From NCBI GenBank assembly GCA_016887505.1, contig CP069393.1, forward strand, positions 744,001-808,000: DNA of 64,000 bases. The letters run 5' to 3'. Source of the stretch: Clostridia bacterium. GTDB lineage: Bacteria; Bacillota; TC1; UBA5767. A model generated the notes under the pieces. That model was not told the DNA's origin, made no database searches, and worked only from the letters and a program-made list of their open reading frames with translations. The translations under genes and the position numbers were made by a program. This document shows positions 21,714-24,619 of the stretch, one piece after another; the stretch's first letter is position 1, and each line of letters starts with the position of its first letter.

Positions 21714-22574
21714 TTAGGATTTAAGTCTTTGGGCAAAAGCACCAAAACCTAATTCTTTGAAGAATTCGGGATCATATACTGGTGGCAATTGTTTGTTTAC
21801 CACTGCTTCTACCATGGATTCTTTAAATGGTATCCGAAGCGCAATATCTAATTCGTTATTCTGGCAATAGGCTTCTATCTCCTTAGCACCATTGGCAGAT
21901 AAATCAGATTTATTTAGAACGACCAAGGTATCAATATCAAAACTTGTCACCAATTCGTGCACTCTTTTTAAATCATGTAGGCCGGATATGGTGGGTTCTA
22001 TAACAATAACTACTTTAGAGACGCCTGTTATAGAAGAAATGACATTGCAGGCAATCCCCGGTGAACCATCAATGAGAATCCAATCTCGCATATTTTTTTG
22101 AGCCAGTTCTTTCGCTTTTTTACGCACTTCGGCAACTAGTCTACCCGATGTTTCTTCACCCGGAATCAATCTAGCTCTTGCCATTTCACCTTGCTTGGTC
22201 ACGCTGGTAAAGATTTTACCCACGGTATAATCCTGTAGACTTATAGCATCCACTGGACACACATATTCACAAACACCGCAACCTTCACATTTGGTTAGTT
22301 TGAATTCAATATCGTCCGTAATAGCACCAAAATTACAACTATTAGCACATTTGCCGCATTGTATGCATTTATCTGCATCTAATACAGGTCTTTGCAAGCC
22401 AATAAAGTTCTCAGCTTCAATATCCGTTTCCGTTAACAGAATATGCAAATCTGGTGCGTCTACATCACAATCAGCCAAAACTAGACTATCGAAGTAGGGT
22501 ATCAAGGAAGCGACAATGGAGGTCTTGCCTGTTCCTCCTTTTCCAGAGACTACGGCAATTTCTTTTGCTGCCAT
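21714..22574 (-). CDS. MinD/Mrp-family ATPase with an inserted 2x[4Fe-4S] ferredoxin domain
   Basis: 286 residues. Deviant Walker A GKGGTGKTS at about 11, then an inserted ferredoxin domain at about 60-110 (CIQCGKCANSCNFGAI and CEGCGVCEYVCPVDAI), then DGSPGIACNV and later P-loop ATPase motifs. Proteins of this type are paired in the Desulfovibrio orange-protein (ORP) locus and are thought to load or transfer metal clusters. It overlaps the preceding paralogue by one base (TAATG). Last gene of the four-gene cluster. Confidence 0.88.
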   Translation of the reverse strand: MAAKEIAVVSGKGGTGKTSIVASLIPYFDSLVLADCDVDAPDLHILLTETDIEAENFIGLQRPVLDADKCIQCGKCANSCNFGAITDDIEFKLTKCEGCGVCEYVCPVDAISLQDYTVGKIFTSVTKQGEMARARLIPGEETSGRLVAEVRKKAKELAQKNMRDWILIDGSPGIACNVISSITGVSKVVIVIEPTISGLHDLKRVHELVTSFDIDTLVVLNKSDLSANGAKEIEAYCQNNELDIALRIPFKESMVEAVVNKQLPPVYDPEFFKELGFGAFAQRLKS

Positions 22575-23416
22575 TACACTACCTCCTTTTGGCTCATTAC
22601 TTGCTTTAGAATTCCTTCAATTATGCTTTTGTATTCATCATCTACTTGTGAGATAAGGTTTCCACCTGCATATTTCCTCGCGTATTCCTTCTTGAAGGGT
22701 ATTCTTCCCAATATCTGGATATCTTCTGATTCACAATATTGATAAATATCTTTGTCTCCCAGTCCGTCCTTATTGACAACAACACCCATGGCTATCCCTA
22801 AATCCCGCAGTAGTTCCACAACCATCTTCATATCAGATACTCCGAAGGGAGTAGGCTCAGCAACTAGGATTGCAAAGTCTGCGCTATCGATGGCTGCTAC
22901 CGTACTGCAAGCCGTACCTGGAGGACAATCAATCAAAACCAAATCATCATCCATCGTGATTTCTCGAAGTCTTTCAATAATGGGTACCCCAGATATTTCA
23001 CCTACGGTTAACTCCCCGTAATGCATTTCGTGTCCCGTTATGGTATGTCCTGAATAGACCATGCCAATAGATCTTTCTTTATAGCGTATTGCATCGTTGG
23101 GACAAACCATCTGGCATCCACCACAATCGTGGCATAGCTCTTTAAAAACCAAAACACTTTTTTTGGCAGGTAAAATGGCATTGAAGCGACAAAAATCTCC
23201 ACACGCACCACATAAATCACATAATGATTCATCCACTATGGGATACCTTTTTTTAATAGCCTCTGTCTTTTGAATCTGAGGTTTTAAGAATAGGTGGCTA
23301 TTCGGTTCCTCTACATCTGTATCGATCAGCACACCAGAATCGCTAACAGACAGCAGATTGGTGGCAACTGTTGTTTTGCCAGTACCACCTTTTCCACTTA
23401 GGATTGCTATTTTCAT
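22574..23416 (-). CDS. MinD/Mrp-family ATPase with an inserted ferredoxin domain, paralogue 2
   Basis: 280 residues. Walker A GKGGTGKTT at about 8; inserted ferredoxin domain with CDLCGACGDFCRFNAI and CHDCGGCQMVCPNDAI; Walker B-like VLIDCPPGTACSTVAA. It is a diverged paralogue of the next gene and the two probably form a heterodimer. It lies 6 bases after the NifX-like gene in one operon. Role in cluster assembly is inferred from the family. Confidence 0.88.
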   Translation of the reverse strand: MKIAILSGKGGTGKTTVATNLLSVSDSGVLIDTDVEEPNSHLFLKPQIQKTEAIKKRYPIVDESLCDLCGACGDFCRFNAILPAKKSVLVFKELCHDCGGCQMVCPNDAIRYKERSIGMVYSGHTITGHEMHYGELTVGEISGVPIIERLREITMDDDLVLIDCPPGTACSTVAAIDSADFAILVAEPTPFGVSDMKMVVELLRDLGIAMGVVVNKDGLGDKDIYQYCESEDIQILGRIPFKKEYARKYAGGNLISQVDDEYKSIIEGILKQVMSQKEVV

Positions 23417-23422
23417 ATTCTT

Positions 23423-23794
23423 TTAAGCCTTATACATTCCATGTTTACTAGCTGTAGTACTAGTATCAATCTTACTCAACTTACCATTTTTATAGTCTTC
23501 AATGATTTCACGTACTGACTTTTGTTCTGTGTAGCGATAAGCTGTGATTTCAAATGCCTTGATTGCGTCCATTGCTTTGGGGCCCAATTCCGGTACTAGT
23601 ACCACATCAACCCCATTTTCATTTAACAGTCTAACAGCAGTTCCACCTGCCCCACCTGACTCAAATTTTGCTTTATTTTCGATACTTTGAGGCATATTCT
23701 TTTCTTCGTCAAATAGCACAAAATATTCAGCTCTGCCAAATCTTTCTTCAACGGTGGAATCCAATCCAGGTTGTTTTGCACATACTGCTAACAT
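23423..23794 (-). CDS. NifX/NifB-type iron-molybdenum cluster-binding protein, orange-protein-like
   Basis: 123 residues of the dinitrogenase Fe-Mo cofactor biosynthesis fold: ERFGRAEYFVLFD, GGAGGTAVRLLNENGVDVVLVPELGPKAMDAIKA. Orange protein of Desulfovibrio belongs to this family and holds a Mo-Cu sulfide cluster; NifX carries FeMo-co precursors. No nitrogenase gene is present, so an ORP-like role is more likely. It lies between the fusion regulator and the ATPases. Confidence 0.85.
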   Translation of the reverse strand: MLAVCAKQPGLDSTVEERFGRAEYFVLFDEEKNMPQSIENKAKFESGGAGGTAVRLLNENGVDVVLVPELGPKAMDAIKAFEITAYRYTEQKSVREIIEDYKNGKLSKIDTSTTASKHGMYKA

Positions 23795-23803
23795 ATTATC
23801 CTC

Positions 23804-24478
23804 CTATTCGTGGTGGTGATCACAAGGTGTTCCCTTGGATACCAATTCTCCACCAACATACTCCGCCAATGTTTCATCAATTTTTCCACTTGCACCTAAA
23901 ATTACATCAATATTTTGATCTTTAAACAAACGAATAGCCATTTGACCCATACCACCTGTTATGATGACATCCACTTCATGTTCCCCCAAAAAATTCGGCA
24001 AAACACCAGGTGCATGTGGGGGAGGTGTCAAACTCTTTTGGTCAACAATGTTGTTGCCCTCCATATCATACACTGCGAATGACTTACAATGGCCAAAATG
24101 CTCATCCACTGTAATACCATCCGTTGTAGGCATAGCAATTCTTATTACATCTTTCGATCTCTTATCCATTTTGTTTTCTCCTTTTAATTGTATATTTTTA
24201 ATTTCATTATTAATGGCAATACTTTTATTCTCCAACAATGCTTCCACAATCTTAAACCGTGCGGATACAAGCAAGCGCTGCACTGTGCCTCTTGAGATTT
24301 TCATTTCTTCGCTGGCTTGTATTTGGCTTAAGCCTTCATAATCTACCAAACGCATGGATTCAAATTCGTCTAAACGCAAAGTCACTTCTTCAGGATTTTG
24401 ATCCTGAAATCCTTTCGGCATATAGTACTTTCCACTTATCAGCCTCCTACAGGCTCTCTTCTTGGTTGGTTTGCTCAT
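23804..24478 (-). CDS. DUF134 DNA-binding domain fused to a NifX-like cluster-binding domain
   Basis: 224 residues. The N-terminal DUF134 helix-turn-helix (about 1-95) has CRRLISGKYYMPKG, LRLDEFESMRLVDYEGLSQIQASEEMKISRGTVQRLL. The C-terminal NifX-like domain (about 110-215) has IAMPTTDGITVDEHFGHCKSFAVYD and VIITGGMGQMAIRLFKDQNIDVILGA. The tail CDHHHE could bind metal. The architecture suggests a regulator that senses a metal cluster or its supply. It is the first gene of its operon, behind two palindromes, so autoregulation is likely. Start has GGAGGAAAG directly upstream. Confidence 0.87.
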   Translation of the reverse strand: MSKPTKKRACRRLISGKYYMPKGFQDQNPEEVTLRLDEFESMRLVDYEGLSQIQASEEMKISRGTVQRLLVSARFKIVEALLENKSIAINNEIKNIQLKGENKMDKRSKDVIRIAMPTTDGITVDEHFGHCKSFAVYDMEGNNIVDQKSLTPPPHAPGVLPNFLGEHEVDVIITGGMGQMAIRLFKDQNIDVILGASGKIDETLAEYVGGELVSKGTPCDHHHE

Positions 24479-24491
24479 CTTTCCTCCGTAT

Positions 24492-24505
24492 TGTGCATAT
24501 GCACA
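24492..24505. promoter_or_regulatory. Palindromic operator 1 at the DUF134-NifX promoter
   Basis: TGTGCATATGCACA is a perfect 14-base palindrome. It sits at the predicted transcription start, between the -10 (24511-24516) and the ribosome binding site of the fusion regulator. It shares the core TGCATATGCA with a second site 66 bases away. Confidence 0.65.
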
Positions 24506-24510
24506 TTCAT

Positions 24511-24539
24511 AGTGTATACTCCTTCCGAACTTGTGTCAA
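24511..24539 (-). promoter_or_regulatory. Promoter of the orange-protein-like operon
   Basis: Minus strand: TTGACA (24534-24539) and TACACT (24511-24516), 17 bases apart. Operator 1 lies just downstream and operator 2 (24560-24569) just upstream of the -35. Confidence 0.65.
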
Positions 24540-24559
24540 TGCTATTTCCAATATTTTTG

Positions 24560-24569
24560 TGCATATGCA
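24560..24569. promoter_or_regulatory. Palindromic operator 2 upstream of the same promoter
   Basis: TGCATATGCA, flanked as GTGCATATGCAA, repeats the core of operator 1. The centres are 66 bases apart, about six helical turns, which would allow looping between two bound dimers. Confidence 0.6.
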
Positions 24570-24587
24570 AATTTATTTAATCTTATA

Positions 24588-24619
24588 AAAAAGACTGTCC
24601 TTCCTGCTGGACAGTCTTT
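24588..24619 (-). terminator. Terminator of the molybdoenzyme operon
   Basis: Minus strand: AAGACTGTCC pairs with GGACAGTCTT around an 8-base loop, followed by TTTT. It begins 24 bases after the stop of the large subunit. Confidence 0.88.

Follow-up and report, generated by a model that had tools for sequence, protein, structure and literature searches.

The window analyzed here is a 64,000-bp stretch of the Clostridia bacterium contig CP069393.1 (positions 744,001–808,000). Between 21714 and 24478 it contains four close-packed genes on the minus strand, encoding a fusion of a DUF134 domain with a NifX-like domain, a second NifX-like protein and two MinD/ferredoxin ATPases. We consider it probable that the DUF134-NifX fusion is a cluster-sensing autorepressor acting at the palindrome TGTGCATATGCACA in front of its own gene. 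At the level of sequence, the comparisons establish the conservation of this operator, the geometry of the promoter, the conservation of the operon and the covariation of operator bases with residues of the recognition helix. Binding of the fusion to the palindrome is a well supported prediction, and we infer that it is direct and involves a dimer; self-regulation through this site is strongly supported. Repression is suggested by the position of the site, and sensing of an iron-sulfur (Fe-S) cluster, together with its sign, by homology.

The gene cluster, the fusion gene, its CDHHHE tail and both palindromes named in the preliminary description are real, as judged from open reading frames (ORFs), Pfam and the sequence itself, and a TTGACA-17-TACACT promoter indeed lies between two palindromes 66 bp apart. 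The distal 10-mer TGCATATGCA (24560–24569) has exact copies in the window only at the proximal and distal sites. With up to one mismatch it has nine matches, versus a mean of 3.35 in shuffled sequences (none of 100 shuffles reached nine). The expectation that such palindromes precede related DUF134 genes held for the proximal site, while the TGCATATGCA pair proved peculiar to this genome. Exact TGTGCATATGCACA stands directly before the same gene in both other genomes of the genus; in all three genus members it occurs once per genome, always just before the fusion gene. Neither same-genus genome has the distal copy, and the 110 bp in front of the other fusions of the clade lack it as well. The two-palindrome bracket was ruled out as the key feature because the distal copy is missing from the same-genus genomes.

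The arrangement TTGACA-17-TANNNT-5-TGWGCATATGCACA was found before a DUF134 gene in 12 of 14 loci, namely the window, the ten loci of its fusion clade (L148–L157, from Clostridia, Tissierellales, Mycoplasmatota and Izimaplasma) and L289. The two exceptions are L201, with a near-match at another spacing, and L158, with neither a detected DUF134 gene nor a site. A thirteenth such gene (L380, helix ISRGTFQR), from the hold-out set described below, has TTGACA-17-TATTAT-5 followed by exact TGTGCATATGCACA, the spacing being read by eye. The order fusion, NifX, ATPase, ATPase is kept in all 11 clade loci (own genome and L148–L157), two of which, L150 and L153, break off within the last ATPase at the contig end. 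Control of molybdenum (Mo) or xanthine dehydrogenase as the purpose of the system was ruled out, xdhA being adjacent in only two of these 11 loci (own genome and L148).

We next consider the distribution of the operator letters in 249 sampled genomes of the phylum. Exact TGTGCATATGCACA was revealed in eight of them, in five at a DUF134 gene, and its reversed control pattern in none of the 249. L288 and L289, which lie outside the genus, carry it at DUF134 genes with the helices SRGTFQR and SRGTVQR, respectively. With up to two mismatches the genus genomes contain 12–15 sites each, versus 1–3 for the reversed pattern; the single extra near-match whose context was read (L137) sits inside an ORF. 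A wide regulon for TGTGCATATGCACA was rejected, as the exact match occurs once per genus genome. At position 1501 of L034 (G030) and L286 (G144), TGTGCATATGCACA stands beside a GntP-like permease according to the ORF reading, in fetched stretches without a DUF134 gene, and in G144 a regulator-like ORF adjoins the site; here it is possibly the operator of another regulator. In G176 it lies within a terminator-like hairpin.

Another set of letters, TGACATATGTCA, was analyzed in 16 genomes picked for holding DUF134 genes, mostly of the ARTTV/ARSTV/TTVT type. It was found at 20 sites in 11 of the 16, and 18 of the 20 are located at operons with DUF134, NifX or MinD. Fifteen of these belong to DUF134 operons identified in the preceding searches, and the other three are those of L292, L300 and G079:C134, the last of which stands before NifX-MinD-MinD. 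The two other exact sites, off NifX/MinD operons in contigs C51 and C91 of G079 (L307 and L308; the C51 site is upstream of a lipoprotein-like ORF), are possible extra regulon members or chance matches.

PF02001 is present in 165 of the 249 genomes. As a near-palindrome we counted a CATATG-centred 14-mer with at least three of four flanking pairs complementary, located no more than 120 bp from the start. By this rule sites were found at 37 of 209 distinct DUF134 genes, while 63 control cores gave a mean of 0.70 and a maximum of 5 (L152 and L157 have the same DUF134 start and form one entry in the gene tables). The CATATG core also occupies 24 of 48 perfect palindromes of at least 12 bp within 300 bp upstream of DUF134 genes, with outer letters that vary by subfamily (GTGC, GGGC, GAGC, TGAC, TGGC, GGGT, GAAC). 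Fusions make up 35 of the 209 genes, and the fusion type therefore extends beyond this genome; counting them, a NifX-like stretch is found at 112 of 212 DUF134 loci.

Two promoter classes were revealed. In the class of the window a single site lies just past the -10 box. In the second, tandem class, site 1 begins TTGACATAT, its left half being the -35 box, and site 2 follows the -10 box, 32–40 bp on. Within 1 kb upstream of the start, 212 DUF134 genes have 164 cases of TTGACA; TAT follows in 53 of them, and the second most frequent triplet in 7. An ATAT-centred second site 28–46 bp on was found in 29 of the 53 (mirror-image control, 15), and 23 of these 29 are palindromic at three or more of five pairs (control, 2). 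Among these 23 promoters, 163 of 184 positions in the free half of site 1 agree with both halves of site 2; shuffling gave a mean of 105.2 and did not reach 163 in any of 20,000 trials.

The genome of the window has a second DUF134 operon of the tandem class, encoding a small glycine-rich protein (MPARDGSGPRGMG..., which we take to be DUF5320-like), DUF134 and a protein starting MMEISPDCVLCTIKK. Its promoter carries TTGACATATACCCA and GGGTATATACCC, and the cell would therefore have two DUF134 proteins with different predicted targets. A further exact copy of GGGTATATACCC in this genome is located within a coding frame. Five mostly Desulfovibrio-type loci with the helix SRQTFGR (L180, L189, L196, L200 and L224) have long perfect palindromes, TTATGGGCATATGCCCATAA (TATGGGCATATGCCCATA in L180), about 43 bp before the start.

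To relate operator bases to protein residues, 94 alignment columns were ranked over 64 gene-operator pairs, pairs with disagreeing half-sites being excluded (n = 61, 55, 54 and 49). TATATA-core sites were taken only with GGG flanks, so that GGG in these few rows is partly a product of selection. Residue 64 was the best of the 94 columns for half-site bases 4 and 5, and residue 68 the best for base 6; they lie one helical turn apart in the third helix of the predicted helix-turn-helix (62–81 in the numbering of the AlphaFold2 model, which lacks Met1). Of 45 pairs with Arg68, 42 have G6 in one or both halves, as against 0 of 19 with other residues; Arg to G is a textbook contact. Thr64 goes with A4 in 14 of 17 pairs, one more being mixed, and Ala, Ser, Gly or Gln at this position with G4 in 42 of 43.

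These rules were applied to a hold-out set of 54 new genes, 39 with a site and 15 without; L379, whose helix had been misread, was excluded, leaving 38. Thr64 was accompanied by A4 in 29 of 32 and Ser, Ala or Gly by G4 in five of six (Fisher p = 0.0006, a guide at most, as the genes are interrelated), and G6 was lacking in all 30 sites of proteins without Arg68. When L379 is restored with its true helix, ARTTFQRV, the counts become 29 of 33 for Thr64 with A4 and, counting either half, 8 of 9 for Arg68 with G6. Genes of the ARTTVQR group (L346, L351–L353, L355 and L356) have mostly lopsided sites, e.g., AGGGCATATGTCAA, in which one half resembles GGGC and the other GTCA; perhaps two DUF134 paralogues share one promoter there. 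In L198 the site CCGCCGCATATGCGGCGG, at -35 from the start of a fusion gene with the helix SRATFGR, breaks the Arg68-G6 rule; its flanks look rich in G+C, and it may be due to chance.

Several observations weigh against this picture. In the hold-out set Arg68 was accompanied by G6 in the right half in only two of eight sites (seven of eight counting either half). Column 45, which lies outside that helix, is the runner-up for bases 4–6, and therefore shared ancestry contributes to the covariation; a tree-based independent-pairs test found one supported pair per residue (p = 1) and had no power. SRTTF and ARTTF helices go with G4, contrary to the rule for Thr64. Either promoter layout was found in just 64 of 212 DUF134 genes, the other 148 having no site by the rules used, and in the common SRPTF class sites are few and imperfect. 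Exact TGTGCATATGCACA occurs away from a DUF134 gene in three genomes (G030, G144 and G176). Finally, the first Cys of the CXHFGHCE motif of MrpORP, the relative discussed below, is Asp in the fusion, whose cluster may differ.

The fusion belongs to DUF134 (PF02001, 60.3 bits; gathering cut-off 27) and to Nitro_FeMo-Co (PF02579, 78 bits; cut-off 26.3). The predicted fold of its NifX half is that of PH0822, TM1816 and the Desulfovibrio gigas orange protein (Z 17.0 for 2yx6 and 14.9 for 2wfb). It contains the motifs DEHFGHC, TPPPHAPGVLP and CDHHHE, the C-terminus reading ...GTPCDHHHE; all 29 aligned relatives have HFG, the Cys of HFGHC and the terminal Cys. Its best NCBIfam match is MrpORP (NF041136), with 110.3 bits over residues 93–211 against a full-length cut-off of 450. 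According to PMC6345978, the Di-Nase domain of MrpORP carries a [3Fe-4S] cluster (-445 mV) and has as conserved motifs CXHFGHCE, a TPPPHXPGXXP stretch and a terminal CDH. HFGHC, TPPPHxPGxxP and the C-terminal CDH are common to both proteins. In MrpORP, however, Di-Nase is joined to a P-loop NTPase, and here to a DNA-binding domain; without a P-loop domain and with a score below the cut-off, the fusion is outside MrpORP. Because of this homology and the shared motifs, Fe-S appears a likelier ligand than Mo or Cu, and the earlier idea that the fusion reads a metal cluster directly is plausible.

The described resemblance of the cluster to the Desulfovibrio orange protein (ORP) locus, without nitrogenase, was right as to composition. 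The ORP complex (orp operons DVU2103–DVU2109) likewise combines two MinD/ferredoxin ATPases (Orp3/Orp4) with Di-Nase proteins (Orp8, MrpORP), and both ATPases of the window match CbiA and several Fer4 models. PF00148, the nitrogenase component family that a nitrogenase-cofactor (NifX) system calls for, had no matches in the own genome, the same search being positive in four of 14 control genomes. The control of the two systems differs: according to PMC6345978 the orp operons of D. vulgaris diverge from one another and are under the control of sigma54 and a cognate regulator, whereas here a single operon, with the DUF134 fusion first, has a sigma70-type TTGACA-17-TACACT promoter. The MrpORP gene present there is missing from the four-gene set. 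A bound S2MoS2CuS2MoS2 cluster is a further mark of the orange protein complex.

The DNA-binding half matches region 4 of sigmaE on -35 DNA (2h27; a middling Z of 6.7, 60 aligned residues, rmsd 3.9). It shares the helix-turn-helix fold of sigma-70 region 4, the Sigma70_r4 score of the fusion being 21.2 bits, below the cut-off of 24.1. In contrast to sigma factors, the fusion has no other sigma regions (Pfam and NCBIfam scans found no region 2 family), and it is proposed to bind a palindrome, hence presumably as a dimer. The best sequence match of the DUF134 profile in PDB is the DeoR DNA-binding domain 7bhy of B. subtilis (E = 5.8e-6 over 38 helix-turn-helix residues); the effector domain of DeoR is unrelated to NifX. 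Among the matches listed by the fold searches for the fusion there is no DNA-binding repressor that carries NifX, an absence that proves nothing. Neither Pfam nor NCBIfam assigns a function to DUF134/UPF0251 (PF02001, PRK04217). No function for DUF134/UPF0251/COG1342 was found by title or passage in the literature covered, which excluded most subscription journals; a passage of PMC5886521 is a mutation table that assigns none, and for the letters of the palindromes no paper with a relevant title was found.

It can be proposed that the DUF134-NifX fusion is a one-component autorepressor of its own four-gene operon. The DUF134 half would bind TGTGCATATGCACA as a dimer, covering the transcription start and blocking RNA polymerase. 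Residue 64 would set half-site base 4 (A for Thr; G for Ser, Ala, Gly or Gln), and Arg68 would accompany G at base 6. The NifX half would sense a metal cluster, most likely Fe-S, and switch DNA binding, thereby matching expression of the ORP-like cluster-handling genes to the supply of clusters. Either the apo or the holo form would block the operon until the cluster status changes. Many other DUF134 genes may be controlled in this way, with different letters and frequently with a pair of sites, one of them merged with the -35 box. We infer repression because the sites lie over the start in the class of the window and over the -35 box and the start in the tandem class. The combination of a helix-turn-helix, a sensor domain and a palindrome at -10/+1 of the own promoter is that of one-component autorepressors; the specific DNA binding and derepression by ligand expected of them have only indirect support here, from the covariation. 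New here would be the DNA-binding family and the sensor domain, while the kind of regulator is already known.

Among other explanations, the most serious is that the NifX half plays a structural part or is a common cluster carrier fused by accident, with DNA binding independent of the cluster. Most DUF134 genes are unfused, so that the domain can manage without a NifX partner, and cluster binding by the fusion is itself proposed from homology. We nevertheless hold this explanation unlikely, as NifX-like stretches accompany so many DUF134 loci, and the fusions conserve both DEHFGHC and the C-terminal Cys. It is improbable that the fusion binds the palindrome as an activator or a sigma-like recruiter: although the DUF134 fold is that of sigma region 4 and site 1 of the tandem class contains TTGACA, promoters in the class of the window combine a complete TTGACA with a good -10 box, past which the site lies in a roadblock position over the start, and the fusion has no sigma region 2. 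Slightly less probable still is binding by a different, unlinked regulator with DUF134-NifX as a mere target. The same 14-mer beside a GntP-type permease in G030 and G144, away from any DUF134 gene in the fetched stretch, would fit it, but the letters vary per DUF134 gene and track its residues 64 and 68, two DUF134 genes of this one genome carry operators that differ (TGTGCATATGCACA and GGGTATATACCC), and the sites cluster genome-wide at DUF134 operons. That the palindromes reflect chance or composition is already refuted: CATATG palindromes are short and the region is rich in A+T, but neither the excess over the control cores, nor the fixed spacing, nor the empty reversed search agrees with it. 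The autorepressor model is thus preferred, and the earlier suggestion of self-regulation through the palindrome has gained from the fixed spacing, the family-wide enrichment and the tracking of half-site bases by helix residues.

Xanthine-dehydrogenase-type genes lie upstream of the fusion operon on the same strand. A hairpin with a T-run between them and the operon, which the terminator scan did not list, probably ends the upstream xdh operon. The coordinates of all features are given below.

Features of the DUF134-NifX locus (positions in the window unless a contig is named; a dot marks features without strand)
Feature	Position	Strand	Remarks
Proximal operator (predicted), TGTGCATATGCACA	24492..24505	.	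Begins 5 bp past the -10 box, 13 bp before ATG
Promoter TTGACA-17-TACACT	24511..24539	-	Located between both palindromes
Distal copy, TTTGCATATGCACA (14-mer, minus-strand reading)	24558..24571	.	66 bp upstream; unconserved
DUF134-NifX (Di-Nase) fusion gene, 224 aa	23804..24478	-	Proposed autoregulatory sensor-repressor; kept in 11/11 clade loci
DUF134 domain, residues 17–90, sigma-region-4-like helix-turn-helix	24209..24430	-	PF02001, 60.3 bits
Recognition helix, residues 63–82, predicted specificity residues G64 and R68	24233..24292	-	AlphaFold2 model and base prediction
NifX/Di-Nase (Nitro_FeMo-Co) domain, residues 120–207, DEHFGHC motif	23858..24121	-	Pfam, 78 bits
C-terminal CDHHHE tail of the fusion	23807..23824	-	Cys C219 invariant
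Second NifX-like protein, 123 aa	23423..23794	-	Pfam, 69.9 bits; conserved in the operon
MinD-like ATPase, two Fer4 motifs, Orp3/Orp4-like	22574..23416	-	Pfam and operon conservation
Second MinD-like ATPase, two Fer4 motifs	21714..22574	-	Pfam and operon conservation
Hairpin and T-run, stem AAAGACTGTCC/GGACAGTCTTT	24590..24619	-	Read from the sequence
Second DUF134 operon of the own genome (L001/L310)	G000:C1, about 903.6–904.3 kb		Tandem-class promoter with TTGACATATACCCA and GGGTATATACCC

For the family as a whole, the chances appear evenly balanced that DUF134 (UPF0251) is a cluster-responsive autorepressor family in which residue 64 reads bases 4–5 and residue 68 base 6 around a fixed ATAT centre, many members having a half-site in the -35 box, with a shared NifX/MinD-ATPase regulon. 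Comparison across about 260 relatives suggests that many DUF134 members are gene switches whose DNA target is partly readable from two amino acids. DUF134 is still named a domain of unknown function; a testable DNA target and the residues setting it would, if true, turn it into an assigned transcription-factor family. The natural one-residue, one-base swaps (ARTTV/ARSTV with TGAC/TGGC) may serve studies of protein-DNA recognition, and the system could offer a way into the physiology of ORP-like MinD/NifX clusters, the role of which is not settled. If the model is true, anaerobes would have, in addition to the Fe-S regulators already known, a second means of sensing Fe-S or other metal clusters, one based on NifX.

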